From positions 1 through 32,630 of the forward strand of contig JBBTBY010000090.1 in NCBI GenBank assembly GCA_038043445.1: DNA of 32,630 bases, given 5' to 3'. Positions 2,577-30,504 of the stretch are shown here, one piece after another. The DNA is from Spirochaetota bacterium. Lineage in GTDB: Bacteria > Spirochaetota > Brachyspiria > Brachyspirales > JACRPF01. Each line of letters opens with the position of its first letter. Positions within the stretch are counted from its first letter, which is position 1. Below the pieces are notes generated by a model that was not told the DNA's origin, searched no databases, and worked only from the letters and a program-made list of their open reading frames with translations. Both the position numbers and the translations under genes were made by a program.

Positions 2577-4861
2577 GCAGAAAAAAAATGAAAACCAAAC
2601 ACAGCTCGGGGAAACAAAAGCCAGCGGCGAAAGCGCCTTCGATCATTTGGCCCTCGACGGCAAGCGTATTCGGTCCTTTTACCAAGGATGATCCCGCTCC
2701 TGCCGCACGGATACTCCTCAAAACCCCGCAATCGCTTGAGCTCGGCGGATCAAATGCCAAAGCCAGGATCGTAGGCACGGAAGAATTGATCGACCTCCAT
2801 GACGCAGTCGGCGGCGGACCGGTGATACCGGAGCGTGTCGCGTACGTGTTCTTCGAAATTGAAAGCTTAGCGGACGGAGAGACCACCATCGGCTGCGGGG
2901 CCGACTACTGGATGCAGTGGTGGGTCAATGGAAAGCCCGCGTTCGATACTCTGCCGGGCGGCAACGGTTCAAATAACTACAGCGTAAAAGCGCATCAATT
3001 CAAAGCCGAGCTCAATAAGGGAACGAATTGTCTGGTTGTCAAAGTGCGCGGCGGAGGCAGCGGTTTCTGCGTGGCCGCCGGCGGGCCGAGGGAAATAGAA
3101 GCTGCGGGCGACTGGCGGCGGCTGGAAAACGGTAATGTCATACCGACGAAAACATATTCGGATCAGCCCTTCATAGTCACTGCCGACGATGGCGCTTGGG
3201 TCTGCTGCGTCACCACCTGTTCCGGTGAAGAAGGAGACCCCGGTCAGCACATCGTAACGATGAGAAGTTTCGATCGCGGCAAGACATGGAGCGAGCCCGT
3301 TGCCGTGGAACCCGCGGATGGCCCCGAGGCCTCGTATGCGGTAATGCTCAAAGCACCGTCCGGCCGTATATTCATTTTCTATAATCACAACACCGACCGT
3401 GTCCCCGAAGTCAAATCCCACGACGGAAAAACCGTTTTCAAGCGCGTCGACTCCTTGGGGCACTTCGTTCTTAAATACAGCGACGATCATGGAAAAAGCT
3501 GGTCGAAGAAGCGCTTTGACATCCCTTTCCGGCTCTTTGACTGCGACCGGGAGAATGTCTACGGCGGAAAGATATGTTTCTTCTGGAATGTCGGCCGCGC
3601 GTTCACCATCGATGACGCCGCCTATGTCCCTTTGATCAAGATCGGAAAAATGGGCCGCGGTTTTTTTGCCCAATCCGAAGGCACACTGCTCAGAAGCCCC
3701 AATCTCCTCACCGCCAAAGATCTTTCGCAGGTCACGTGGGAAACCCTGCCCGAAGGCGACATCGGTCTCAGAACACCTCCCGGCGGCGGCCCGATCTCCG
3801 AAGAACAGAGTTACACTGTGTTGAGCGACAAGTCTATCTATGCCGTCTACCGAACGATAGACGGACATCCCGTCGAGGCGTACAGCCGTGATGGCGGACG
3901 TCACTGGACACAACCGCGATACATGCAGTACCCGGACGGCAGCCGTGTCAAACATCCCCGAGCGGCGAATTTTGTCTGGCGCTGTGAGAACGGAAAATTC
4001 CTCTACTGGTTCCATAACCACGGGGGCAGGCATCTCGCTTCGAGATCCAATGTGTGCGAGATCGCCTATAATAACCGCAACCCCGTATGGGTGCTGGGAG
4101 GCGTGGAAGCCGACTCTCCGGACGGAAAGATCATCCGCTGGGGCCAGCCGGATATTCTGCTCTACAACGACGACCCCTTGATCAAAATGAGTTACCCGGA
4201 TCTGGCAGAGGCTGACGGCGAATATTACGTGACCGAAACTCAGAAAACCACGGCGCGGGTACACAAAATACCGAAATCCTTCCTTGAGAAGCTCTGGAAC
4301 GCGGCGGCAGGAATTCCTATCCCTACGCCTGTTCCCCGTCTTAATTGCATGGAACCGGGCGCGAGCGTCAAGGCGCCGGGACTGCCCGTACTCTTTGAAA
4401 AAGACCTTCAAACCGCCGACGGCCGCGGCGTACATACCCGCAGGGGCTTTGGCTTTGAATTGCGCCTTCGATCGGACGCCAAATCGGGAATACTTCTCGA
4501 TGGTATGAACAGCGAAGGCAACGGTTTCTCACTAGACGTGACGGCTGACGGACGATTGGAGCTCTTTATGGGCGACGGCCAGTGTGAGAGCCGATGCGTA
4601 AGCGAGCCCTTGCTGAAAAGCGGAATCGAGAATCATCTGGTGGTCAATGTGGACGGCGGGCCGGGCATCGTGAGTTTCATCGCCAATGGGAAATTCTGCG
4701 ACGGCGGCGATGATCGCCAGTTCGGATGGAGCCGTTACAACCCGTGGCTGCAGCGTATCGACTTTGCCGGCGAATGGAAGCTCGGCGGGGCGGTCAAGTC
4801 ACTGCGATTGTACGGCCGCCCGCTCTTGAGCGCGGAAGCGCTTACAAGGAGTATCATATGA
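2573..4861 (+). CDS. Sialidase-like BNR/Asp-box protein with flanking beta-sandwich domains
   Basis: This is a 762-residue protein. Residues ~30-170 form a sandwich domain with the pattern GADYWMQWWVNGK (109-121), also present at the C-terminus of the 15746-21214 protein. Residues ~185-570 form a BNR/sialidase-type beta-propeller with three Asp-boxes: SFDRGKTW (232-239), SDDHGKSW (303-310) and SRDGGRHW (438-445). Residues ~600-760 look like a concanavalin-like jelly roll. Family members include exo-sialidases and other glycan-cleaving or -binding enzymes, so the substrate is not defined. The N-terminus is lysine-rich (MSRKKMKTKHSSGKQK) with no hydrophobic segment, so no signal peptide is evident, which is unusual for a sialidase-like protein. 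Both ends overlap neighbours through ATGA junctions, so it is co-translated with the two oxidoreductases. Confidence 0.8.
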   Translation: MSRKKMKTKHSSGKQKPAAKAPSIIWPSTASVFGPFTKDDPAPAARILLKTPQSLELGGSNAKARIVGTEELIDLHDAVGGGPVIPERVAYVFFEIESLADGETTIGCGADYWMQWWVNGKPAFDTLPGGNGSNNYSVKAHQFKAELNKGTNCLVVKVRGGGSGFCVAAGGPREIEAAGDWRRLENGNVIPTKTYSDQPFIVTADDGAWVCCVTTCSGEEGDPGQHIVTMRSFDRGKTWSEPVAVEPADGPEASYAVMLKAPSGRIFIFYNHNTDRVPEVKSHDGKTVFKRVDSLGHFVLKYSDDHGKSWSKKRFDIPFRLFDCDRENVYGGKICFFWNVGRAFTIDDAAYVPLIKIGKMGRGFFAQSEGTLLRSPNLLTAKDLSQVTWETLPEGDIGLRTPPGGGPISEEQSYTVLSDKSIYAVYRTIDGHPVEAYSRDGGRHWTQPRYMQYPDGSRVKHPRAANFVWRCENGKFLYWFHNHGGRHLASRSNVCEIAYNNRNPVWVLGGVEADSPDGKIIRWGQPDILLYNDDPLIKMSYPDLAEADGEYYVTETQKTTARVHKIPKSFLEKLWNAAAGIPIPTPVPRLNCMEPGASVKAPGLPVLFEKDLQTADGRGVHTRRGFGFELRLRSDAKSGILLDGMNSEGNGFSLDVTADGRLELFMGDGQCESRCVSEPLLKSGIENHLVVNVDGGPGIVSFIANGKFCDGGDDRQFGWSRYNPWLQRIDFAGEWKLGGAVKSLRLYGRPLLSAEALTRSII

Positions 4862-9862: not shown

Positions 9863-10768
9863 TCAGAACGGATCGTTCTCCCGCACAGCGCTCGGCGCCA
9901 GGGAGAAACGCTTCGTGAACACGCGGCTGAAGTAGAGTTCATCGGTGTACCCGAGCGTTGCCGCTATCTCTCGTATCTTCATCGTTGGATTCTCGGTTAT
10001 CATGCGATAGGCTTTTCGAAGCCTTCGCTCCTGTATATATTTCCCGCAGGGGAGTTCGCCCGCTTCCTTGAACACCTGATTAAGATAGCGCGGCGAGAGC
10101 GAGAGCGCGCGGGCAATGTCCTGTATGCCGATATTCGTTGCGACCTTCGCTTCTATCATTTCTTTTGCGGCGAGGAATATTCTGAGCGATCCTTCTGCCG
10201 CTTCGTTCCGCTGAGCGGAGAAGAATTCACCGAAATTCTCGCGGAGCATGAGATAGAATATATCATAGATGAGGAGCGTGAGCCGCTTTTCCATGAACTG
10301 CCCGCGCAATGCAAGCTCGCGGTCTATGGATGCGTAATGATCCTTCGCCTCGCCGGGAAGCGTGAGCGTGTACCCTCGTTTCTTTGCAAACCCGGCGATC
10401 ACGCTGTTCATCTGCACATTCCCTGTGGAATGGAATTCTATCATGAAGTTGTCTATCGTGCAGTCGCCCTTCGTCATCGTCCATGCGTGTTCGATGCCTG
10501 TCGGCAAGAAATCCACATCGCCCGCCGAACGCGCAAGCGTTTCCGTATGCGTTCGATAGGTCACTTCGCCCTTGCGGATGAAGCTGAATTCGTTGTACGG
10601 ATGCGTATGCCAGAGGGCGCTTTCGCCCGCACGTATCGTGCTTCGCCGGGAAGTGGCGATCGTAACGACAAAACCGCCGCAGTCGATGAAGGGTATTTTC
10701 CTGATGACGCCGCGGACGATCTGATTGTGTACGTCCTCGTGTACATCGTTCTGTGATGAAGTGGCCAT
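9863..10768 (-). CDS. AraC family transcriptional regulator with cupin sensor domain
   Basis: This is a 301-residue protein. The N-terminal half is a cupin-type effector domain (HTHPYNEFSFIRKGE at ~54-68 and GDVDFLPTGIEH at ~83-94). The C-terminal double helix-turn-helix lies at ~212-298, with IQDIARALSLSPRYLNQVFK and the second recognition segment IREIAATLGYTDELYFSRVF. Such proteins usually sense a sugar or its breakdown product and activate nearby genes. The ATG at 10768 is preferred over an in-frame ATG at 10828 because the promoter (-35 10799-10804, -10 10776-10781) lies inside the longer version. No Shine-Dalgarno site precedes the start, so the mRNA appears to be leaderless. It is divergent from the M55 peptidase operon, which is a likely target. 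Confidence 0.88.
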   Translation of the reverse strand: MATSSQNDVHEDVHNQIVRGVIRKIPFIDCGGFVVTIATSRRSTIRAGESALWHTHPYNEFSFIRKGEVTYRTHTETLARSAGDVDFLPTGIEHAWTMTKGDCTIDNFMIEFHSTGNVQMNSVIAGFAKKRGYTLTLPGEAKDHYASIDRELALRGQFMEKRLTLLIYDIFYLMLRENFGEFFSAQRNEAAEGSLRIFLAAKEMIEAKVATNIGIQDIARALSLSPRYLNQVFKEAGELPCGKYIQERRLRKAYRMITENPTMKIREIAATLGYTDELYFSRVFTKRFSLAPSAVRENDPF

Positions 10769-15745: not shown

Positions 15746-18700
15746 ATGACCATGCGGATATCGGCGCTTATCGTTTCGGCAGCAATTACCATTGCGCTTC
15801 AGGCGCAGACAAAACCTGCGATCGAATTCCTTTTCGACGGATCATTGAAGAACACGGGAACGCTCGGCGGCGAGGGGAAATTCGCGAACACCGTTGCCGG
15901 CGAGGAAGCGCGCTTTGGCGACGGCATGATGAACGGTTGCCTCGATATGTGCGCCACGCGCGGAGGCATGGATGACAGGGCCGTTCCCCATGGCGGTGCG
16001 GTGCACTTCCCCGCAGCCGCTCTTGCCGGCACATCGGCGGTGACCGTTATCGCGGCGATATACCCGGCTGTTATCGATGATCTCCCGCGGCGCATCGTTA
16101 CGCTCTCCCCGCTCTTGCAGATCTATGTGCAGGGAGCATCGCTCGTGCTTGCGGTCGGCAATGCGAAGAACGAGATGAAATTCTGCGCGACCGGGATATC
16201 CGTCGCTCAGGAAACACCCGCACTCATCGCCGTGACATGCGATGCAAAGAACAAGGTGATAACGACGTATCAGTTCAAGAACCGCGCATTAGTGAAGACT
16301 GCCACCGAGGGCGGCACGCCGGATAATGCAGTGTTCGCCGGGGGTGTCATCGAGGTCGGGAATATGGGGGGCATACGTGCGTTCAAGGGATATATCGACA
16401 ATGTGCGCATCTATACTGCCGTGCTTCCCGAGAACGAGATAGCCTTGATCATGAGCGCGGACAGGAATGCATTCGCGCTTCCGTCAGCGGCAACCGCAAC
16501 GATCGCTTCTGAGAACGGCGCCGCGATTTCCGCTGCCGATGATTTCACTTCGTACGGCGGTGATATGAAGAGCGTACTGAAGAAGTGGGACTTCAATACC
16601 GCGTGCTGGAAGCTTGGTGAAAAAAGCATCATGGCGAATGCGCTGGTGCGTGAATTCGCAGAATATAATACAGCGCCGGCGGAGATCGTGCACTGCGAGG
16701 CAGTCGTTACGTTTAAGCGCTCCATCACCAATGGATGGAAGGCGGCCGGCATCGCGGTTGTCGCGGACGATAATAATTACTGGATGCTCGCGTTGAACGA
16801 GCGGCATGAGAATTTCACGAAAACGCATCCGCTCCTCTTCCCCGACCTGAACGAACGGCTCGGCGGGGTCTGGCTTTCCGAATCCGCAACTACCACCAGG
16901 CTCAAGGCGGCCGCGCTTGAGAATTTCTCGACGACGACGAAACATCCCTGGGCGCACGGAACGCCGTACCGTTTCATCATCGATCTTTCAGAGGACGGCA
17001 TTTCCGGGAGCATACAGGATATGAACGGCAGAGAGCTCGGGCGAAGTGCGTATCAATTCGGCACGCAGCGTGCCGTGCGCTCTGGCCGTCCCGTGCTCGT
17101 TGCGTTCGGGGCCGCGGCAACGTTCAGCGATGTGCGCATACGCACCGAGCGTCCCGTAACCGTGCAACAGGCGGCATCCCCCACCGGTTGGTACATTCAG
17201 CCCGCGGAACATCCGGACATTCAGCCGTTGGAGAATCGATGGGAACCGCTGCTTATACTTTCGCATATATCACGAAAACCGTTCGCAAAGTTAAAACCGA
17301 ACATTCAGCCGCTTGATATAGAGAACCTATGGTATAGGAAAACGTACGATATTCCCGACGAGTGGAAGGGCAGGTCTATCTGGATCAATTTCGAAATGAT
17401 AGAGGGACAGGCGATATTGTTCGTGAACGGCAAGCGGATAAAGGAAATGCTCCGCGGCGACTGGGAGGCGGAGATAACCGATGCGGTCACTCCCGGAGAA
17501 AAGGCGGATGTGCGCCTCTATCTTACCCGAACGTTCACCGGTACTGAGGCAAAGCCTGAAGCGGACGCGCTCATGTTGGAAGCGCTTGCCTTCGCGCGAA
17601 AACAGAAGATCGAACAGCTCGGGATCACCCGTGATGTGCGGGTTTTTACGCGGGGCAATCCGGCATGGATAAGGAATCCCCAGGTCGTGTCGCGATATTC
17701 GGAGAAAAAACTGGCCATTGAATGCGATATCGGCGGGGCCGCGGACGGACTTAAGCTCATCGCGCGGATAAAGAGCATAACCGATCCCGGCCAGCCGCCG
17801 GTGGAAGCAGCGGTAAGGCAGGCGGTGACAGGCATCAATCGATTCGATGCGGCGTTCGACGGTGTTCCCTGGTATCTGAACGCACCGCATCTGTATCGGC
17901 TGACGCTCGATCTCGTATCGGGACAAACGGTGGTCGACAGCACGGAGACGAGTTTCGGTTTTCGCGAAGTGCGCATCGACGGGAATGCGGTGCTCATAAA
18001 CGGGCGGACCAATCGCTGGCGCCTTATCGGGCCGTTCAATCCGACGCAGACGACCAGCATAGCGACGAATCCCGCGTATCTCAAATTCTTCAAGGGTGCA
18101 GGTTTCAATGTCGTGCAGGTACAGCCGAACCCTGAAACATGGTGGGGCTATATGCCCGCACCGTATCCCCGAAATACGTACGGGATAACCGACGATGCCT
18201 TCCTCGACCTCTGTGACCGCGAGGGCATAGGCGTCACGCTTCCGATTCCGCCGGTAGCCAATAATGTAGGTTTTCATTTTTCCTTTGATAAAAAACCCGA
18301 GCTTGCTGTGCAGTACCGCCGTGAGATAAAGGCATATATCGACCGCTATCGGCATCACCCGTGCATTCAGGCGTACACCATCGGCATGAACGTCATCAAC
18401 AGCGATACGTACACGGAAAATCTGTCGCCGAGGGCCATGGGACAGACGCTCCCGGTAAAGCCGGGATGGCAGGAACGCGTCGTACGCGCATTCGAGGTCG
18501 GCGTAGAGACAGTAAAGGAGATAGACCCGTCAGTGCCGGTGTACTGTCATGCGGCAGGTTCATGGGGCGGCGAGATCTCGGGCGGTAATCAGCATTTGAA
18601 CCTGATACCGCTTGCCGAGTATGAGAAATGGCCGTCGCATTGGGCAAAAGAGGGGAAAAAGCCCTGGATAGCGGATGAATTCGCCTGCCCCTGGATCGGT

Positions 18701-21214
18701 GATTTTATTTTCAAGAAATATATACCGGCCGGATGGTCCATCGATCCGAAGAACCCCGAAATGGCGCTCACGGAGTTCTCCGCGATATTGCTCGGTGATG
18801 AAAGCTATCGTGTGGAGACCGAATCGAACCGCCGCGCCCCCCGTGCAGGGATAAAGAACCTCGAGGACTACGGTGTAGCGCATTCGAGCGCGCCGGAACG
18901 ATTGAGCCGCATGCCGGCGTACGAACGTTTCATGAGCGAACATATGCCGCGTGTGGTGCGCGCATTCCGTACGTTCAATGTACTCGGCTTCACGCCCGGC
19001 TGGCTTTTGGAATGGAACGCATTCTGGGAGATGCCGGAAGCGAACGACCCGATGGTGAGAGCATATGCCGCCGTCATGCAGCCCTTGCTTGTGTATATCG
19101 GCGGGTATCCTGATCACTATACGCGAGAGCGCAATTTTCATGCCGGCGAAAAGATCTCCAAGCAGATAGTCGTCGTCTATGACGGCCCCAATGCGCGGCT
19201 CCCGATAACCGTGCGCTGGACGGTTCGCTCCGACAGCGGCGCGAATATTGCGAGCGGAACGGAAGAGCTTGCCCCGAGCGCAGGAGCCATCATGTTCCGG
19301 CAGATCGGTTTCACCGCGCCTGCCGTGCAGGTCCGCACCGGTGCGACGATATCGATAACAACGAGCGGACACTCGCAGAGTACCGGGACTACGGACAGTT
19401 TCCGCGTAAGCATATGGCCTCTCGAAAAGGCATCGCCGCCGGTCGCTGCGCGCATCATAGACCCCGTCGGCGACTCCACGTCATGGCTTTCAAAACGTGT
19501 GACGGAAAAGTCCGATGCACCGCTCATCATCATCGGACGACGCGCGCTTGAAAAGCTTACGAAACTTCCGTACACAGCGGACGATATCGCTTCCGGTCTC
19601 ACCGTTCTCATGCTCGAGCAGACGCCCGACGACCTCATGCGGCTGGGGTTCCGCGTCGAGGAACGCGGGGTACGCAAGGTCTTTATCCGCGGAAAAAATA
19701 TCTTTCCCGGCATCGAGAGCGAGGACTGCATGGATTGGCGGGGAAGTGCGAGCCTCCTTCCCGAAGAAGAGCTCCCGCGATATTGGACGCATCGATCCGT
19801 TCTGATAGGGATGAAGCCGCAGCGCATGACGCGATGGGGGAATCACGGATCGGTATCTTCAGCGATCATCGAGGTGCCGCAGAAAGGAAATATGCGAGCG
19901 CTCATGGATTGCGAATTCGATCTCGCCTATTCACCGCTCCTCGAATGGCGTCACGGCAAGGGGCGCGTGATATTCTGCCAGCTCGATCTCACCGGACGCG
20001 TTGGGATAGACCCCGCTGCAACAGCCATCGCCTCCCGACTCATCGCTCTTGCTTCGTCGCCGTGCGAATCCGCGGACGCACGTCTTTCCATAACAGCCGA
20101 TGACACTACGGCAAAGGCCGTACGCGCGCTCGGTTTCGCCGAAGGGGAAGGTCCGCGCACGGTCAATGCTGTCTCATTATCCCGCGCGGGAGCGAAACGT
20201 CCCGGAACGACGATAATGATCGCCGATGAAAAACCCGCGGGGACCGGCGGCTATGCAGTGAAAGAACTTACCGCCGCGAACGATCTGAACGACATGCAGT
20301 TCGGCTCGGGCATCATCGGTCCCGCGCTCATGCGCTTCCGTCTCCCGCTTACGGTCAATGTCGATGCGAAAGGGAATTTTCTCGCCGGTCCGTCTTCCGG
20401 CGGGGTATCATTCATCGGTGTTCCGATCACGGCGGCTGATACCGGTGATCCGGTCCATGCACGCATCACGAAAATGCGCATTCGATCGCTCTACAGCCGC
20501 GCATTCACCTTTCTCGGCGTGCAGAGCGACGCCGAGTATGCGCAACGCATCTCTTTGCTTTCCGCACCGGTGATGTTTCAGTCCGGCGTACAGGCGGTGA
20601 CATTGCCGCTCGAGAACGCGGAGATATCCGTGCCTATGATATCCCGGACAAGCGACGGCATGAAAGGGCTTATCAATGAACCCGTGAATGAGAGCGAGGT
20701 GGTCTGGAAGGATCTCAAGAACCTAGCCGCCACATCGGACGCAGCCGGCTACGGCGGCAGCGTCGGCGAAGTGATAGACGCGATAGCACTTTTCAAGATG
20801 CAGCCCGATCCTCGAGCCCGCGTTCTCATACGCGGCACCATCGATATTGCCGAGAACGGTCCTGTCAATTTCTATCTCGGCGCGGACTGGTGGGCGAAGC
20901 TCTTCGTGGACGGGAAACTTCTCATCGATCTGAGCACACGCGCCGGGAAATCGAGCGAGATCGTGGGCATAGGATCGCGAGAGCTGTCACGCGGAAAACA
21001 TGAAGTGGTCATGCATATCGTGTCAGGGAGCGCCGGATTCAACAGCCGCCTCATCATGGATACGCTGAAAAAACCGCGGACGATAAGCGATTTCAATCTT
21101 GACTTCAGCAAGATCTACGGCAAACCGATGCGGCCGTACAATCCCGATGGTTATTCGCTCTACAGCGCGCCGATGGGCGATGATGAGGACCCGTATCTCT
21201 ATATGACATGGTGA
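15746..21214 (+). CDS. Giant secreted GH2-like multidomain protein (1822 residues) with LamG domain
   Basis: A signal peptide spans ~1-20. A LamG-type domain spans ~23-240 and opens with KPAIEFLFDG and LKNTGTLGGE, as in the 5927-9748 protein. A second jelly-roll-like region covers ~265-470. A GH2 N-terminal sandwich (LWYRKTYDIP, ILFVNGK) lies at ~500-640, a GH2 immunoglobulin-like domain at ~640-745, and a TIM barrel at ~745-1100. The nucleophile candidate is E978 in PWIADEF. The acid/base position reads YTIGMNV, so V883 stands where NE is expected. Residues ~1255-1440 look GATase/trimerisation-like. Residues ~1650-1780 carry the GADWWAKLFVDGK sandwich also found in the sialidase-like protein. 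It may be a non-canonical glycosidase or a glycan-binding protein. It ends 2 bases from a convergent AraC gene. Confidence 0.8.
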   Translation: MTMRISALIVSAAITIALQAQTKPAIEFLFDGSLKNTGTLGGEGKFANTVAGEEARFGDGMMNGCLDMCATRGGMDDRAVPHGGAVHFPAAALAGTSAVTVIAAIYPAVIDDLPRRIVTLSPLLQIYVQGASLVLAVGNAKNEMKFCATGISVAQETPALIAVTCDAKNKVITTYQFKNRALVKTATEGGTPDNAVFAGGVIEVGNMGGIRAFKGYIDNVRIYTAVLPENEIALIMSADRNAFALPSAATATIASENGAAISAADDFTSYGGDMKSVLKKWDFNTACWKLGEKSIMANALVREFAEYNTAPAEIVHCEAVVTFKRSITNGWKAAGIAVVADDNNYWMLALNERHENFTKTHPLLFPDLNERLGGVWLSESATTTRLKAAALENFSTTTKHPWAHGTPYRFIIDLSEDGISGSIQDMNGRELGRSAYQFGTQRAVRSGRPVLVAFGAAATFSDVRIRTERPVTVQQAASPTGWYIQPAEHPDIQPLENRWEPLLILSHISRKPFAKLKPNIQPLDIENLWYRKTYDIPDEWKGRSIWINFEMIEGQAILFVNGKRIKEMLRGDWEAEITDAVTPGEKADVRLYLTRTFTGTEAKPEADALMLEALAFARKQKIEQLGITRDVRVFTRGNPAWIRNPQVVSRYSEKKLAIECDIGGAADGLKLIARIKSITDPGQPPVEAAVRQAVTGINRFDAAFDGVPWYLNAPHLYRLTLDLVSGQTVVDSTETSFGFREVRIDGNAVLINGRTNRWRLIGPFNPTQTTSIATNPAYLKFFKGAGFNVVQVQPNPETWWGYMPAPYPRNTYGITDDAFLDLCDREGIGVTLPIPPVANNVGFHFSFDKKPELAVQYRREIKAYIDRYRHHPCIQAYTIGMNVINSDTYTENLSPRAMGQTLPVKPGWQERVVRAFEVGVETVKEIDPSVPVYCHAAGSWGGEISGGNQHLNLIPLAEYEKWPSHWAKEGKKPWIADEFACPWIGDFIFKKYIPAGWSIDPKNPEMALTEFSAILLGDESYRVETESNRRAPRAGIKNLEDYGVAHSSAPERLSRMPAYERFMSEHMPRVVRAFRTFNVLGFTPGWLLEWNAFWEMPEANDPMVRAYAAVMQPLLVYIGGYPDHYTRERNFHAGEKISKQIVVVYDGPNARLPITVRWTVRSDSGANIASGTEELAPSAGAIMFRQIGFTAPAVQVRTGATISITTSGHSQSTGTTDSFRVSIWPLEKASPPVAARIIDPVGDSTSWLSKRVTEKSDAPLIIIGRRALEKLTKLPYTADDIASGLTVLMLEQTPDDLMRLGFRVEERGVRKVFIRGKNIFPGIESEDCMDWRGSASLLPEEELPRYWTHRSVLIGMKPQRMTRWGNHGSVSSAIIEVPQKGNMRALMDCEFDLAYSPLLEWRHGKGRVIFCQLDLTGRVGIDPAATAIASRLIALASSPCESADARLSITADDTTAKAVRALGFAEGEGPRTVNAVSLSRAGAKRPGTTIMIADEKPAGTGGYAVKELTAANDLNDMQFGSGIIGPALMRFRLPLTVNVDAKGNFLAGPSSGGVSFIGVPITAADTGDPVHARITKMRIRSLYSRAFTFLGVQSDAEYAQRISLLSAPVMFQSGVQAVTLPLENAEISVPMISRTSDGMKGLINEPVNESEVVWKDLKNLAATSDAAGYGGSVGEVIDAIALFKMQPDPRARVLIRGTIDIAENGPVNFYLGADWWAKLFVDGKLLIDLSTRAGKSSEIVGIGSRELSRGKHEVVMHIVSGSAGFNSRLIMDTLKKPRTISDFNLDFSKIYGKPMRPYNPDGYSLYSAPMGDDEDPYLYMTW

Positions 21215-22226: not shown

Positions 22227-23075
22227 ATGAAACGGGACATGCTATCCAGCAATGCCGATGTTCGAAATACCGGCGTACCGATACAGATACGTCACTATCA
22301 GCGCGGGGCGCATCCCGAGCATGCACACGACTATCTCGAACTGATGATCGTTCTTGCGCCGAACGGAAGCCAGCGAGTGAACGGGCGCACATATCGCTTC
22401 GCGCGCGGACAGGTCTTCTGCCTCGGCTATGCCGATAAGCACGAGATCGTCGTCGATCCGCGGCGTCATTGCGATTTTTATAATATCAACTTCCATCCGG
22501 AGGCGGTGTTCTCATCGCCGAAAGGCGGCTACGAATCGCTCGGACTGCTTCGCCCGTTCTTTCTTCCCGAACAGGTGCCGACCATGATACTTAGTGGAGG
22601 ACAGTTGAGGACCGTCATATCCCTCTGCGAGATCATGCTCCGCCGCGACGATGCGCCGGGAATATTTCACAGTACGGCAATGTCGGGGCTTCTGTCCGCA
22701 CTGCTCTCGGCGATAGCGGAATCATCGCATGGTAAGCCGACTGATGACACGCAGGTGCTCCGCATCATGCATTACATCACGATGAATTTTAAACGCGCCT
22801 TGACCACCGCTTCGATAGCCGAACACTTTTCTTTGAGCCCGTCGGGGCTTTCGCACCTTATCAAGCGCAGCACCGATCTCACGGTAAAGACCATCCTGGT
22901 GCGGCGGCGCATCATCGAGGCGAAAAAGCTTCTTTCATCGACCGACCTCAAGCCGTATCAAGTCGCCGCTGAGTGCGGCTTTAACGATGCCTCGCATTTT
23001 TTCCATTGTTTCCGCGAGGACACGCATTGTACGCCGGAGGAGTTCAGACAGCGGGTTGTCAATCCGCCCCACTGA
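22227..23075 (+). CDS. AraC family transcriptional regulator with cupin sensor domain
   Basis: This is a 282-residue protein. The cupin half carries EHAHDYLELMIVLAPNG (~31-47) and FARGQVFCLGYADKHEI (~58-74). The helix-turn-helix pair at ~180-278 has TTASIAEHFSLSPSGLSHLIK and PYQVAAECGFNDASHFFHCF. The predicted promoter places the RNA 5' end on the ATG, and no Shine-Dalgarno sequence is present. It is transcribed divergently from the 21217-22116 AraC gene (110-bp gap) and lies upstream of, and in the same direction as, the broken GHL6-like gene and the epimerase. These are likely regulated genes. The distant similarity to its neighbour suggests separate effectors. Confidence 0.87.
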   Translation: MKRDMLSSNADVRNTGVPIQIRHYQRGAHPEHAHDYLELMIVLAPNGSQRVNGRTYRFARGQVFCLGYADKHEIVVDPRRHCDFYNINFHPEAVFSSPKGGYESLGLLRPFFLPEQVPTMILSGGQLRTVISLCEIMLRRDDAPGIFHSTAMSGLLSALLSAIAESSHGKPTDDTQVLRIMHYITMNFKRALTTASIAEHFSLSPSGLSHLIKRSTDLTVKTILVRRRIIEAKKLLSSTDLKPYQVAAECGFNDASHFFHCFREDTHCTPEEFRQRVVNPPH

Positions 23076-23121: not shown

Positions 23122-23182
23122 ATAACCGCATCAATTGCTGCGTTCCGATGCTCTATCGGGCGCGCGGATGCGGAGTACAGCA

Positions 23183-25222
23183 ATGTGGTTCAAAAAAAAT
23201 TATCGCCGTGTGTTCCTCGATATGCACATCGATGACTGGAACGAAGAATTCCTGTCGAAACTTGATCCGAAAGCCGTCGTCGATACGATAAAGACATGCG
23301 GTGCGCAGCAGATCGTCGTCAAGGCGAAGCCGCATACCGGTCTCTGCTACTGGCCGGCGAGCGTCGGGCGCATGCATACGGGACTCAAAGGCCGCGACTA
23401 TGTCGGCGAGATGATAGAACTTTGCCATGCCAACGGCATCGCGGCGATGGTGTAATACTCGCACATATTAGACAACTGTGCGTACGAACACCATCCCGCC
23501 TGGCGATGCGTATGTTCCGACGGCATGACATCGATGCAGGAGCCTGTCGATAGAACCAAGTGGGCTCGCGGACGCTACGGCATAGTATGTCCGAACAATA
23601 ATGAATACCGCGCTTACGTGAAAGCGAATCTTACGGAGCTCAATGAGCGATACCGATTTGAAGGGATGTTCCTCGATATGCCGTTCTGGCCCGAGGTGTG
23701 CTACTGCGCGTCCTGCCGGGAACGATATTTCAAAGAGGCCGGTAAAGACATGCCGACCATCGTCGATTGGGGCGATGCGGCGTGGCTTTCCTTTCAGCGG
23801 TGCCGCGAGGCATGGCTTGGCGAATTCGCCGCGTTCTCGACACAATGCGTGAAGGCGGTAAGCCCGGCAGTTACCATCGAGCATAATTTTTCTATCGCAT
23901 TTGCGCCGTGGATATTCGCCACCACCGATATGACAGCCGAGGCAAGCGATTACGCCGGCGGCGATCTCTACGGCGGCTATCTCGAACAGACGTTCGCCTG
24001 CAAATACTATCGGAACGTTTCTCGTGATCTCCCGTTCGCGTTCATCACCTCGCGCTGCGATCCGAACCTGAAATATCATACCTCGACGAAAACGGACGAG
24101 GAACTTATCCTCCACACGATGACCGCGCTCGTCCATGACGGCGCATTCTCGGTATGCGACGGGATGAACCCCGACGGCACGATCAACCCCGAATTCTATA
24201 CCGGCACAATGAAACGCGTATTCGATACGACACGCGAGTTCGAGAAATACGTCGGCGGCGAACGCGAAAGCAATGTGTCGGTCTGGTTCTCATCATGTTC
24301 AAAATTCGACACTGCCGATAACGGCAAACGCGTTGATCTGAATTGCGGCAGGAGTTACATCGACGGCCCCATGAAAATGGCGGGCATCCTCCGCGAGAAT
24401 ACTATACCGTTCGATGTTATCGCTTCGAAGGACCTCGCCGCAGTCACCGATGACGTGCTTGTCATATCCGATGTCGCATCGATATGCGATGAGGAGATGG
24501 ATGCGATAGAGCGATATGTGATGGGCGGCGGGAATCTCTATGTGAGCGGCCATATCGGGCACGCGCGTCTTGCCGAACTGATGGAAATAGAGCAGATAGG
24601 AATGACAGAGCATGATTTTACCTACATGAGCCCGACGGGAAATGGGATATCATCATTCGATGGTTTCAGCAGCACGGATCCGCTCGGCGTGGACGGGAAG
24701 CAGCACATCGTTTCGGTCAAAGGAGATTGCGATATAGTGGCGACGATCACGCTGCCGTACACGATGACGGGCACGCGGCAGTTCGCATCCATACATTCAA
24801 ATCCGCCGGGCATACGTACCGATCATCCCGCCATGATACTGAAACACATCGGTAAAGGGAAGATACTCTGGACGGCGGCGGCCATTGAGACGGCAAAACC
24901 GTATATGAGCAGGCTGGTCGTCTGCAGGCTCATACGCTCATTGTGCGGTGAAATGAAATTCTCCTCGAATGCGCCCGCGCATGTGGAGATCGTCGGATGG
25001 AGAAAGAGCGGGAGGAGATACTTCGCCGTGCTTAATCAGCAGGAAACGATGCCCGTTGCGCCGGTCTATGATGTACGTATCAGCATTCCGGGAAAAACAG
25101 TAAGCGCACAGATACTCGGGACGAAAAGTGAATGCGCTGTCACGCGCGACGGTACGTGTTCGGTGATAGAACTGCCGAAGCTTGAACTGTTCCATGTGAT
25201 AGAAGTATCGCACGGGGCATGA
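23183..25222 (+). pseudogene. GHL6-like glycosyl hydrolase gene interrupted by an in-frame TAA
   Basis: The reading frame runs for 680 codons with one internal stop, TAA at 23453-23455 (codon 91). The frame is unchanged before and after it. Upstream, residues 1-90 (WFKKNYRRVFLDMHIDDWN, KPHTGLCYWP) match the start of the hypothetical glycosyl hydrolase 6-like TIM barrel. Downstream the family pattern continues directly as YSHILDNCAYEHHPAWR, with the barrel motif FEGMFLDMPFWPEVCYC and a C-terminal trimerisation-like domain (ISDVASICDEEMDAIERYVMGGGNLY, shown here as ISD-x-ASI and YVMGGGNLYVSG). The family expects Tyr (VYYSH) at the stop. The gene may be a recent nonsense mutant, a readthrough case or an assembly error. 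No signal peptide is visible. Confidence 0.75.
23525..25222 (+). CDS. 3' open part of the interrupted GHL6-like gene
   Basis: An uninterrupted stretch of 565 codons from ATG 23525 holds most of the barrel (GMFLDMPFWPE, CYCASC, a WGDAAWLSFQRCREAWL segment) and the C-terminal domains. No ribosome binding site precedes this ATG, and the family pattern extends upstream to 23456, so it is better read as part of the 23183-25222 gene than as an independent gene. If it is translated alone, it lacks the first barrel strands. Confidence 0.5.
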   Translation: MTSMQEPVDRTKWARGRYGIVCPNNNEYRAYVKANLTELNERYRFEGMFLDMPFWPEVCYCASCRERYFKEAGKDMPTIVDWGDAAWLSFQRCREAWLGEFAAFSTQCVKAVSPAVTIEHNFSIAFAPWIFATTDMTAEASDYAGGDLYGGYLEQTFACKYYRNVSRDLPFAFITSRCDPNLKYHTSTKTDEELILHTMTALVHDGAFSVCDGMNPDGTINPEFYTGTMKRVFDTTREFEKYVGGERESNVSVWFSSCSKFDTADNGKRVDLNCGRSYIDGPMKMAGILRENTIPFDVIASKDLAAVTDDVLVISDVASICDEEMDAIERYVMGGGNLYVSGHIGHARLAELMEIEQIGMTEHDFTYMSPTGNGISSFDGFSSTDPLGVDGKQHIVSVKGDCDIVATITLPYTMTGTRQFASIHSNPPGIRTDHPAMILKHIGKGKILWTAAAIETAKPYMSRLVVCRLIRSLCGEMKFSSNAPAHVEIVGWRKSGRRYFAVLNQQETMPVAPVYDVRISIPGKTVSAQILGTKSECAVTRDGTCSVIELPKLELFHVIEVSHGA

Positions 25223-25225
25223 CCG

Positions 25226-26131
25226 ATGCCGCCATCGAAGACCGTAATGAAGGATACTCTCGCCATCCATGTGCAGGAACCGCACTATCGATTCGGCGCG
25301 CATCAATTTCTCTGGAAGGAGCGGTGGACGGACGACGATCTGCCGATACTGGATGCTGTGGCATCGCTTGATCTATCGCTCTTTGAAATATCTATCGGCG
25401 ATGATATCAGCTTCGACCGCACGCGTGTGCGTCGTCATGCCGAAAGGAACGGGATAGAACTCACCGTCGGTCCGGGGAATTCCTGGCCGGCAGAGTGCGA
25501 TATCTCCGATGACGATACGGAAAACCGCCGGCGCGGTCTTGCATGGCATAAAAAGAACATCGATATAGCTTCAGAGATGGGGGCCATCGCCTACTGCGGT
25601 GCTCTCTACGGACATCCCGGCACGGTTCGCAAACGCCCGCCTGTCCCGGCTGAGCTCCCGCGCACAGCGGAAAATCTGCATGTACTTGCGGAGTATGCGG
25701 CCGCACATGGTATTGCAGCGGTGATAGAACCGATGAGCCGGTTCAGGACGCATCTCGTATGCACCGCAGAGCGGGCGATAGAACTTGTGCGAATGGCCGA
25801 TCACGAGAATATCAGGATCAATCTCGACACCTATCACATGATAACCGAGGAACGTGATTACGGAAAAGCGATACGCTCCATTCTTCCGCGCATCTGGGGG
25901 ATACACGCCAGCGAAAGCGATCGCGGCGTTCCCGGCGGCGGTCTTGTCCCATGGCAGGATGTATTCCGTGCGCTCTCGGAGAACAATTCCTGCACGAATA
26001 TACTTTTCGAGACATACAATACCGGCGGTGACCTTGGGTATTCGCGGGGAATATTTCAGGATCTCTGTCCCGATCCGCGGCGCTTTATTCGAGATGGCGC
26101 GGCATTCTTGAAAAAAATGATGCGTCCGTAG
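25226..26131 (+). CDS. D-tagatose/D-psicose 3-epimerase-like sugar epimerase
   Basis: This is a 301-residue xylose isomerase-like TIM barrel. The metal ligands can be assigned as E168 (VIEPMSRF), D201 (NLDTYHM), H227 (GIHASESDRG) and E262 (FETYN). Their spacing (33, 26, 35) equals that of the Pseudomonas cichorii D-tagatose 3-epimerase ligands (E152, D185, H211, E246). The substrate-binding pattern YHMITEE and SDRGVPGGG also fits. The expected reaction is C3 epimerisation of a free ketose, in the cytoplasm; the particular sugar is unknown. The start at 25226 follows GGGG by 8 bases; 25247 (MKDTLAIHV) is an alternative. It begins 3 bases after the GHL6-like stop, so the two are co-transcribed. 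Confidence 0.87.
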   Translation: MPPSKTVMKDTLAIHVQEPHYRFGAHQFLWKERWTDDDLPILDAVASLDLSLFEISIGDDISFDRTRVRRHAERNGIELTVGPGNSWPAECDISDDDTENRRRGLAWHKKNIDIASEMGAIAYCGALYGHPGTVRKRPPVPAELPRTAENLHVLAEYAAAHGIAAVIEPMSRFRTHLVCTAERAIELVRMADHENIRINLDTYHMITEERDYGKAIRSILPRIWGIHASESDRGVPGGGLVPWQDVFRALSENNSCTNILFETYNTGGDLGYSRGIFQDLCPDPRRFIRDGAAFLKKMMRP

Positions 26132-26299: not shown

Positions 26300-26767
26300 G
26301 TGATCATAGATGAGCTTGAAAACATATCGGCCATTCTGCTGATCCACCCGCGATTCCGGGATGCATTCGATTTTCTTGCTCGACCCGGCTTGACTTCACT
26401 CGCTTTCGGACGAACGAATATTGACGGCGATTCGATGTATGCGCTCCTCAACCGAGCCCAGGGAAGACCGCGCGCGGGGGCGGAGCTCGAGACGCATGAA
26501 CGATACATCGACATACAGTATATCATCGAGGGCGTTGAGAACTTCGGCTGGTCGCCGGCTGGCGATTGCAGTAGTGTATCGAAACCGTACGACAGTGAGA
26601 AGGATGTGGCGTTCTTCAGCGATGAGCCGCAGTTCTTTTTTCCGATCCGCACCGGTCAATTCGTTGTTTTCTTCCCGGATGATGCGCATATGCCGGGGAT
26701 CGCGGATTCGGTCGTTCATAAAGCTGTCGTTAAGTTAAAGATCCGAACAACAGGAGGACATGCATGA
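26300..26767 (+). CDS. YhcH/YjgK/YiaL (EbgC-like) family protein
   Basis: This 155-residue protein has the usual family length and is a cupin-like fold. The motif ETHERYIDIQYIIEG contains E64, H66, Y69, D71 and Q73, and FPDDAHMPG contains D128 and H130; these are the conserved, probably metal-binding, residues. Relatives include EbgC (beta subunit of evolved beta-galactosidase) and proteins tied to sialic acid or ketose use in other bacteria, where they are thought to act as sugar anomerases or isomerases. The GTG start is supported by AGAGGA at 26290-26295, since the ATG at 26287 is out of frame. The stop overlaps the ATG of the secreted glycosidase gene (ATGA), which indicates coupled translation. 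Confidence 0.87.
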   Translation: MIIDELENISAILLIHPRFRDAFDFLARPGLTSLAFGRTNIDGDSMYALLNRAQGRPRAGAELETHERYIDIQYIIEGVENFGWSPAGDCSSVSKPYDSEKDVAFFSDEPQFFFPIRTGQFVVFFPDDAHMPGIADSVVHKAVVKLKIRTTGGHA

Positions 26768-29700
26768 AACAGGGTACACATCTCATGTTATTGATCTGCA
26801 TCGCTGCGGTATCGCTTTTCACCGCCGACGGACCTATTGCCCGCTGGAGTTTCGATGAGAGCGGCGGGACCACGGCAAAGGATTCCATCGGCGATCTTCA
26901 CGGAACGGTGCGGGGGAAAGCCGGTTTCCAAAAGGGCAGGTTCGGGAATTGTCTCTCGCTGCCGGGCACGGCTGAATCGTACTTCGACCTCGGCGCGAAG
27001 TCCGAGGGGATGACGCTCACGTCTTCGTTCACGTTCACCCTCTGGACGAAGAGCACCGGTCGCGGCATCAATTGGCCGACATTACTGCGCAAGGCGAAGA
27101 ACCCCGACGGCAGGAATTATATGCTTTCCGTTAATCCGGACACGGGGGCGCTTTTTTTTGGATGCAATTTCGAGAACGGCACCGCCCTCAATGGCGTTGG
27201 TGCAACGAAGGCGTTCGACGGCGAATGGCATCACATTGCTGTTGCGTTCGATGCCCCGAAAAAGATATTGTCGATCTTCGTTGACGGGGTGCTCGATAGA
27301 TCGTTCACAACCCCCTCCGATACGCTTGTCGCTACGGCTGAGCCGTTCTCTATCGGTCAATACGCCGCATGTCTCATCGATGAAGTGAACGTGTACGATC
27401 GCCCGCTCTCCGCAGCGGCAATAGCCGATGATCGTTCACGGGTGATCGAGGAAAGCACCGCGGAGCCGCGTTTGGAGAAGGCGGGGTCGGGAATGAAGCG
27501 CATACTGCTCGATTATTCAGGCGCGGCGATGGATGATCTGTGGAAGCTTGATCTTTATCGGAAAGGAGTGACCGCCGCACTATCGTTCTCAGGCGGGCAG
27601 GAGAACACGCTTCATGCCGACTACCATTTCACCAGCGCTGTCGACGACAAGGGGGGTGCGGTGTATGTGCGTCTGACGCGGACGGATGTTTTTCCCGAGC
27701 AGCGCGGCATATCGTTTGCTATGGAGTCTTCGCCGCGGGCGGATCACTATATGCGCATCGCTATGGCGGACGGCCAGGTCTTTCAAGCGAAGGTCATGGT
27801 CAATGATACGGCATGGAGCGCCTATGAGCTCCCGTTCGACACGGCTCATTTCAAACCTCATGCAAGCATCACGGACGGGATAATGCGCTTTCCGGTGCGT
27901 ACGATTACCATCGATACGTATAAAGGCAAGATCGAATCCCCCGCCAGATGTTCCATAAAAAATGTCGCGGCCCTTGTGACAGAAATACGGCCCGAGATGG
28001 AGGCGCATCTTTCCATAAAGATCCCCGGTGCCGGCGGCATTGTTTTTATCGGTGAAAAAGCACCGGTACAGATGCGCGTTGCCAATAGAAGCGAACGCGC
28101 GCGCGAATTCGTGCTTTCGCTTACGCAAAGCGAGGGGAACGGACGCGTGAAGAAAACAGATTGGAAGCATTCACTCCCCCCCGGCGCAAGCGATGAACGT
28201 TCGATACAGATCTCAACTGATGAGCCGGAGTATACCGGCATGACGGCTGTGCTCAATGAGAACGGGAAGGAGATCATGCGTGTCAGGGGCGCCGTTGCGG
28301 TCGTGCATAAGCCGAAAAATTCCGGTTCATTCGATTCGCAAAGCATGTTCGGTATATCCCAGACTGCGGATAGACTGCCGGAACTTTTAGCGCCAATGGG
28401 CTGCAAAATATTCAGGGCCATTATTCTTCCCGGAAGCCATTCATGGGATGGGATCGACAGTATGGTCGGCAGGATGCGCTCGAACGGCATACAGGTTGTG
28501 CTCTGTCCCGACGTGCGTGAAGTTCACGGTTTCGATCTGCTCGGATGCTCGAATGTAAGCGAGCTTATTTCTCCGGAACACATCGGCAAATGGAAAACCT
28601 ACATCAAGACTATCGTCGAACGATACAAGGACACGATAGCCGGGATCGAAATATGCAACGAGCCGAACGGGCAAATAGGCAGAAATCTTCCTTTTGAAGA
28701 TTTTACCGGTGTGTATGCCGCGCTGCTTAAGACCGCGTATGATACGGTTAAATCCATCGCTCCGAATTTGCCGGTACTGGGAATAGGAGATTCAGGGATC
28801 AATGAAGGCCGGAACGGGAATTACGCCTACTTTGAACGGGTGGCGCAGAAGGCTGGCGATACGATCGATATATGCCCGTATCATGTGTATCTTTGGAACA
28901 ACGGTATGTGGAGCAAGATAGGGGATGACAGGCGACGCACCATTTATCCTGATGAGCCGGTGGAAAATCAGAGCATCAGCTATTCGGGTATTCTTACGCG
29001 TGCCGGTGATATTCTCGTATCCAATCGCGCCCCAAGGCGGTTTTGGGTGACGGAAACCGGTTATACGGTTTACCCCAGAACGGATGACCCGCTTGAGTGG
29101 AGATCATACGCATATGCCGCAGCGCTGGCACAAACGTATATCGTTGGGGGAACTACACCGGGGGTCGAGAAATTGTTCTGGTTCACTGCACATTGGCATC
29201 CCGGGCATGTCTCTCCGGACAGTGAATTCTGGGGGGAATACAATCTCTTCGGATGCAATTTCCCGCTTGAGAGCAGGCAGTGTCTGGGGCCTTATTTCCC
29301 CTATCCTGCAGTGAGTTCGTATGCAACTACCGCCTACGAACTGCATCACGCGAAGTTCATTCGTACGCTCGATACACCGTCACCCGTGCGTGCGCATCGT
29401 TTCGATCGCGAAGATGATAGAAGCGTGGTCGCACTTTGGACGCGGCACGATATCCCATTTCGTATGGAGGCAAAACTCCCTGCAGCTGCAAAAGTCGTAT
29501 CGATGTTCGGGAACACTATCGGCGGCACGGGCACATTCGCCCATACGCTCGACCGCGGTCCCGTATACATTTCCGTGAAGCGAAGCGAAGCGGACATGCT
29601 TGAGCAGGCGATACTGCGCGCTCAGATAAAGCCCACAGCGCGATGCATCATACGCAATGCCTATCTTGCATCGCTTACTGATGCGGTGCTTGTCATTGAT

Positions 29701-30504
29701 AATCCGTTCGAGGCATTTGCAGCACAGGTGCGCGCCGGCGGCAGCGAGCGTTCTGAATCGATAGCCGCGGGGGCGCAGCGAGTGAACATTGCGCTTGCGG
29801 AAGCGGCAAGTCCCAAACGCGATGTACGGATACAATTCTCTGCGGGCGATTTTTCAACGAACATTACGCTCAGCGCTTCGGGCATTCTCGCCTGCCGATA
29901 TATCGCATCAGCGGTCGCCGATGGCGATCTTTCCGAGACCGCGGATCTCGCCGAACTGCGGATCGATACGCGCGAAAGCGTTCTTCCGAAAGCAAATACC
30001 TGGCGCGATGCCGCAGACTTGAGCGCGCGCGCATTCTTCGGATGGAACGAGAACGGTCTCTATTTTGCGGCAACGGTGATCGATGATGTTCATTCCGCGG
30101 CCGATGACAAGATGGGCGATTTCTGGAAGTCGGACAGCATTCAGATAGCCATCGACAGCGAGGGTGATTCGGCGCGCGGGTATGATGCGAACGACCGGGA
30201 AATAGGCCTTGTGCTTGGTGCATCCGGCGCGCATGCGTACCTGTACCGCGGCGCCATGAGCGAATTGAAATGCGACGTTCACACTGCACGAAAGGATGGC
30301 CGCACCGTGTACGAGGTTTTCATGCCATGGAAAGAGATGGGGCTTTCCGCACCGAAAGCGAACACGGTCATGCCGATGAATTTCATCGTCAATGAGAACG
30401 ACGGCAGGGGGCGTACACAATGGATGGGGCTTACGCCGGGCATCGGAGAGGCGAAGGCCCCGCAGTATTACAAGCGATTCGTCCTCTTGCCGCAGAGAAA
30501 TTGA
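26764..30504 (+). CDS. Secreted LamG / clan GH-A glycoside hydrolase / CBM9-like multidomain protein
   Basis: This 1246-residue protein is paralogous to the 5927-9748 protein. The signal peptide covers ~1-21 (LMLLICIAAVSLFTA). A LamG domain at ~22-222 opens with IARWSFDESGG and includes FDGEWHHIAVAFD. Sandwich regions occupy ~245-510. A clan GH-A barrel (GH39/GH5-like) at ~525-860 has acid/base candidate E633 in CNEPNG and nucleophile candidate E764 in FWVTETGY. The CBM9-like domain at ~1045-1246 has FFGWNENGLYFAATVIDD and NENDGRGRTQWMGLT. AGGAGG (26752-26757) lies 6 bases before the ATG. Both Glu are kept, so it is probably active. Its LamG differs clearly from those of the 5927 and 15746 proteins. 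Confidence 0.85.
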   Translation: MKQGTHLMLLICIAAVSLFTADGPIARWSFDESGGTTAKDSIGDLHGTVRGKAGFQKGRFGNCLSLPGTAESYFDLGAKSEGMTLTSSFTFTLWTKSTGRGINWPTLLRKAKNPDGRNYMLSVNPDTGALFFGCNFENGTALNGVGATKAFDGEWHHIAVAFDAPKKILSIFVDGVLDRSFTTPSDTLVATAEPFSIGQYAACLIDEVNVYDRPLSAAAIADDRSRVIEESTAEPRLEKAGSGMKRILLDYSGAAMDDLWKLDLYRKGVTAALSFSGGQENTLHADYHFTSAVDDKGGAVYVRLTRTDVFPEQRGISFAMESSPRADHYMRIAMADGQVFQAKVMVNDTAWSAYELPFDTAHFKPHASITDGIMRFPVRTITIDTYKGKIESPARCSIKNVAALVTEIRPEMEAHLSIKIPGAGGIVFIGEKAPVQMRVANRSERAREFVLSLTQSEGNGRVKKTDWKHSLPPGASDERSIQISTDEPEYTGMTAVLNENGKEIMRVRGAVAVVHKPKNSGSFDSQSMFGISQTADRLPELLAPMGCKIFRAIILPGSHSWDGIDSMVGRMRSNGIQVVLCPDVREVHGFDLLGCSNVSELISPEHIGKWKTYIKTIVERYKDTIAGIEICNEPNGQIGRNLPFEDFTGVYAALLKTAYDTVKSIAPNLPVLGIGDSGINEGRNGNYAYFERVAQKAGDTIDICPYHVYLWNNGMWSKIGDDRRRTIYPDEPVENQSISYSGILTRAGDILVSNRAPRRFWVTETGYTVYPRTDDPLEWRSYAYAAALAQTYIVGGTTPGVEKLFWFTAHWHPGHVSPDSEFWGEYNLFGCNFPLESRQCLGPYFPYPAVSSYATTAYELHHAKFIRTLDTPSPVRAHRFDREDDRSVVALWTRHDIPFRMEAKLPAAAKVVSMFGNTIGGTGTFAHTLDRGPVYISVKRSEADMLEQAILRAQIKPTARCIIRNAYLASLTDAVLVIDNPFEAFAAQVRAGGSERSESIAAGAQRVNIALAEAASPKRDVRIQFSAGDFSTNITLSASGILACRYIASAVADGDLSETADLAELRIDTRESVLPKANTWRDAADLSARAFFGWNENGLYFAATVIDDVHSAADDKMGDFWKSDSIQIAIDSEGDSARGYDANDREIGLVLGASGAHAYLYRGAMSELKCDVHTARKDGRTVYEVFMPWKEMGLSAPKANTVMPMNFIVNENDGRGRTQWMGLTPGIGEAKAPQYYKRFVLLPQRN

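Follow-up and report, generated by a model that had tools for sequence, protein, structure and literature searches.

The glycosidase gene and its neighborhood

The window, by which we mean the whole 32,630-nucleotide stretch of DNA that was analyzed, came from a Spirochaetota bacterium and contained a glycosidase gene with a single in-frame TAA inside it. The coordinates of the features are listed in Table 1. Translation showed that the frame ran from the ATG at position 23183 through 90 sense codons to the TAA, and then through 588 stop-free codons to a TGA ending at position 25222. The first-pass annotation had reported a TAA at codon 91 of an otherwise open frame, and this TAA was indeed real in the sequence given; the count of 589 codons after the TAA that came with it was corrected to 588. 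The genome assembly itself (G000, contig C90) held the stop, as one TAA. The start codon was preceded by a Shine-Dalgarno-like site, and homologues began at the aligned Met, each with its own purine-rich site.

Table 1. Features of the interrupted glycosidase locus, and the second interrupted gene found in the survey
Feature	Position	Strand	Remarks
AraC-type regulator, intact	22227..23075	+	Just upstream of the glycosidase gene; Pfam HTH_18 and AraC_binding
GGAG, Shine-Dalgarno-like	23172..23175	+	7 nt upstream of the start codon (23183); read from the sequence
GH151/GHL6-like glycosidase gene	23183..25222	+	679 codons plus stop; one in-frame TAA inside
N-terminal fragment expected from normal translation	23183..23455	+	90 residues; beta strands 1-3 at most
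Premature TAA (codon 91)	23453..23455	+	Third beta strand of the TIM barrel (model residues 87-93)
Open frame downstream of the stop, counted from its first in-frame ATG	23525..25222	+	565 codons; barrel strands 1-3 missing
Xylose-isomerase-like (sugar-isomerase-like) TIM-barrel gene, intact	25226..26131	+	AP_endonuc_2; separated from the end of the glycosidase gene by 3 nt
AraC-type regulator interrupted by one in-frame TAG (codon 31), locus L091 (G000:C36)	10389 to 9565; stop 10299-10297	-	Frame starts at the ATG at 10389; ligand-binding domain begins at the TAG

The xylose-isomerase-like gene is probably co-transcribed with the glycosidase gene. The neighborhood was rich in sugar-catabolism genes, with genes for a GH2-like protein of 1822 residues (15746-21214), a YhcH/YiaL-family protein (26300-26767), and an uncharacterized protein of 1246 residues (26764-30504). 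Near the premature stop, we found no promoter or terminator and no meaningful Rfam match.

The gene product is GH151-like

The Pfam model GHL6 (PF14871) gave one continuous match to residues 28-166 of the read-through frame (E 4.8e-22), with a domain score of 79 bits where the cut-off is 35. When the first 90 residues were used alone, GHL6 was still found (5.3e-9) and the match ended in the middle of the domain. These 90 residues also aligned with the N-termini of relatives, so we rejected the idea that the TAA was the end of an unrelated short gene. A profile built from the protein and nine relatives matched the GH151 alpha-L-fucosidase 6TVK with an E value of 3.4e-30, and the match covered the chain in both its halves. 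The structure predicted by AlphaFold (mean pLDDT 82, pTM 0.86) gave the same answer in a Foldseek search: the first PDB match was 6TVK (E 2.5e-41, TM 0.76), followed by GH42 and GH164 enzymes. Thus, the name GHL6-like, which had been assigned from the sequence in the first pass, was right, and GH151-like is the more exact name.

The published catalytic residues of the GH151 enzyme are the nucleophile Asp D154 and the acid/base Glu E235, in the numbering of that paper (PMC10154630). In the window protein, an FLD motif lies where strand 4 ends; its Asp, D165, aligned with the FLD Asp of 6TVK and was invariant among relatives. We take D165 to be the counterpart of D154, an equivalence that relies on a hand-counted offset of 29 residues; the sequence alignment with 6TVK stopped before E235. 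The closest relatives of the window protein were uncharacterized proteins, and the substrate suggested by the homology makes it a probable fucose-releasing enzyme.

Apart from codon 91, the gene is intact

To place the stop among relatives, we used an alignment of 16 homologues with 30-62% identity. All 16 had Tyr at the codon-91 column, as the first-pass annotation had claimed for the family, and none had a stop. The column was ungapped in every homologue, so the match is not due to chance. No stop was found at this position in any homologue from 393 genomes of the phylum or from the species-level genome collection. The comparison with relatives that had been proposed in the first pass therefore yielded intact homologues that lack the stop, and the in-frame stop in the window truncates a conserved domain; both are features expected of a single-nonsense pseudogene or null allele.

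The description of the gene as otherwise intact held up equally well. There were 55 invariant columns among the 16 homologues, and the window protein retained 54 of them, codon 91 being the sole loss. Among the nine closest homologues, it retained 127 of the 131 invariant columns; in a leave-one-out control, each of these nine homologues lost between 1 and 15. Upstream of the stop, third-position GC was 0.70, similar to the 0.65 downstream, and the coding scores of the two parts, 19.7 and 9.9, were both high. Thus, the further decay or relaxed selection that marks an old pseudogene was not found in the comparison of invariant columns. Because a gene that had been decaying for a long time would show more losses, the change is either recent or not real. 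One of the homologues, from Oscillospiraceae (locus L016), appeared to carry a frameshift around codon 600 (about 4410-4434 in locus coordinates), and its two halves matched in different frames.

Single-nonsense genes are a low background in the genome

The genome is a 5.13-Mb draft in 178 contigs, with 97% completeness and 1.95% contamination. We surveyed 2.03 Mb of it for single stops that were flanked on either side by coding sequence and not followed by a start codon in the next 10 codons. The survey produced 41 candidates, 20 with TGA, 11 with TAG, and 10 with TAA. When the 40 candidates other than the glycosidase gene were examined with Pfam, there was one clear second case, an AraC-type regulator gene with an in-frame TAG (Table 1); the remaining 39 had no domain that ran convincingly over the stop. 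These candidates had separate domains on either side, belonged to no family, or had one domain on one side only, and a few lacked any Pfam match. An AXE1 match in locus L093 did run over the stop, but it was a weak, low-scoring secondary match at a clear boundary between two genes.

About 42% of stops placed at random in long frames passed the same filter. At that sensitivity, the genome may carry a background of the order of ten single-nonsense genes. A low background with mixed stop codons fits a situation in which no special mechanism is needed. In-frame stops are widespread in bacterial genes, where most are about as short-lived as population polymorphisms, and they are frequent in carbohydrate genes (Belinky et al. 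2021, PMC7918605). The sources listed in that work are annotation artefacts, sequencing errors, pseudogenes, and functional genes (PMC7918605).

A probable recent nonsense substitution, or an error in the draft

The most likely reading, to which we give a probability of roughly 0.64, is that the glycosidase gene is a nascent pseudogene or null allele produced by a very recent nonsense substitution, either fixed or polymorphic. According to this proposal, a single substitution would have struck codon 91 of an accessory GH151-like gene. Ribosomes would start at the ATG at 23183, stop at the TAA, and release the 90-residue fragment. Since the fragment would contain about three of the barrel's eight strands, it would lack most of the barrel and would not be an active enzyme. 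The gene would then be a nascent pseudogene, or else a null allele that part of the population carries. Other defects would be absent because too little time has passed since the substitution for them to gather. Little decay is the pattern expected if the change was very recent, and for the same reason we limit the claim to a nascent pseudogene. The loss of glycosidase function is predicted from the sequence. Likewise, the change appears to be recent, the nearest known relative being 62% identical and so too distant for dating, and we infer that the TAA, which is known from one draft assembly, is real in the organism.

The second-ranked explanation and main rival is a consensus or assembly error, in which the organism carries an intact gene and the draft has a single base that is wrong or comes from a minor strain. 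We regard this as a possible but clearly less likely reading. An isolated single-base defect in a gene that retains all other invariant residues is what an error would produce, the contig number and contamination of the draft leave room for one, and errors, too, could account for a rate of only one other such gene in 2.03 Mb. Nothing specific pointed to an error, however: the site had no homopolymer and no adjoining frameshift, and nonsense variants are common in real bacterial data (PMC7918605).

The reading frame was identical on either side of the TAA, so no frameshift or hop is needed to join the two parts. A perfect 8-nt inverted repeat lay beside the stop, of which we estimated that about 0.7 would be expected by chance in 301 bases. 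An origin of the stop by template switching was rejected because the arms of the repeat do not reach over the changed codon.

Readthrough, a split gene, and reassignment of UAA

Low-level near-cognate misreading is possible at any stop codon, and UAA followed by U, as here, is regarded as an efficient terminator, which we count against readthrough. Functional readthrough would require that some ribosomes decode the UAA as an amino acid and make a little full-length enzyme, perhaps as a form of regulation. The intact frame after the stop would agree with this, but recency predicts the same intactness. In addition, a local stem-loop of fair stability (23434-23508; z -2.4 to -2.7) had the stop at its apex. 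This stem was absent in the five homologues that were folded, and windows with z at or below -2.4 occurred elsewhere within the same 4 kb, so we rejected it as a functional element. The RNA 3' of the stop was ordinary (z -0.09), with no sign of a stimulatory structure.

The decoding machinery was also normal. The genome contained 40 tRNA genes as detected with Rfam, and ARAGORN typed all 40 with normal anticodons; none was a suppressor with a UAA, UAG, or UGA anticodon, and the anticodon of tRNA-Tyr was GUA. tRNA-His and tRNA-Leu(CAA) were missing from the 40, probably as a result of the incompleteness of the draft. Three genes with release-factor domains were present, and TAA terminated 174 of 702 long frames in the 2.03-Mb sample.

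Readthrough has been proposed for many in-frame stops (Belinky et al. 2021, PMC7918605), but at this position no homologue retains a stop, and we consider functional readthrough very improbable here. Slightly less probable still is a maintained regulatory UAA, at which low near-cognate readthrough in the stem apex would throttle production of the glycosidase. The first-pass annotation had offered four alternatives, namely a very recent nonsense mutation, a population variant, an assembly error, and programmed readthrough. Our results favor one of the first three; the lack of a suppressor tRNA, of a shared stop, and of a conserved structure, together with the normal use of TAA, counts against programmed readthrough.

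In a split gene, the 90-residue fragment would assemble with a second chain restarted at the ATG at 23525, which lies in frame 69 nt after the stop. We think this more doubtful again, since there was no obvious Shine-Dalgarno-like site before 23525, barrel strands 1-3 would be absent from the second chain, the 23 conserved codons between the stop and the ATG would be missing from both chains, and no homologue was split. Genome-wide reassignment of UAA to a sense codon, which would also yield an in-frame TAA in a conserved gene, is refuted for practical purposes by the ordinary use of TAA as a terminator, the lack of a tRNA for UAA among the 40, the presence of release-factor genes, and the finding that only one of the 10 surveyed TAA candidates, the glycosidase gene itself, runs inside a domain.

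The observation matters chiefly for annotation: at a locus where relatives have one GH151-like enzyme, an automatic pipeline would call two fragments or a pseudogene, and the organism might use the sugar concerned or might not. Were the stop population-wide and under selection, it would be a rare example of bacterial control through a UAA; nothing here suggests this.

Comparison with known systems

The window protein was homologous over its full length to ALfuk2 of Paenibacillus thiaminolyticus (6TVK; PMC10154630). The two proteins shared a three-part layout, consisting of the barrel, a Rossmann-like domain, and a C-terminal beta domain, and both had an Asp at the end of strand 4. They differed in that identity was about 17% in the structural alignment and that the window copy has a stop in strand 3. 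Similarly, the read-through frame matched the Pfam family GHL6 (PF14871), whereas in the window gene the match is broken by the stop. The cases collected by Belinky et al. (PMC7918605) had to show the stop in two or more genomes, whereas the stop in the window is known from one. In other respects the gene resembled those cases: it has one in-frame stop, is otherwise conserved, belongs to carbohydrate metabolism, and falls in the class of short-lived variants. The case is ordinary in kind.
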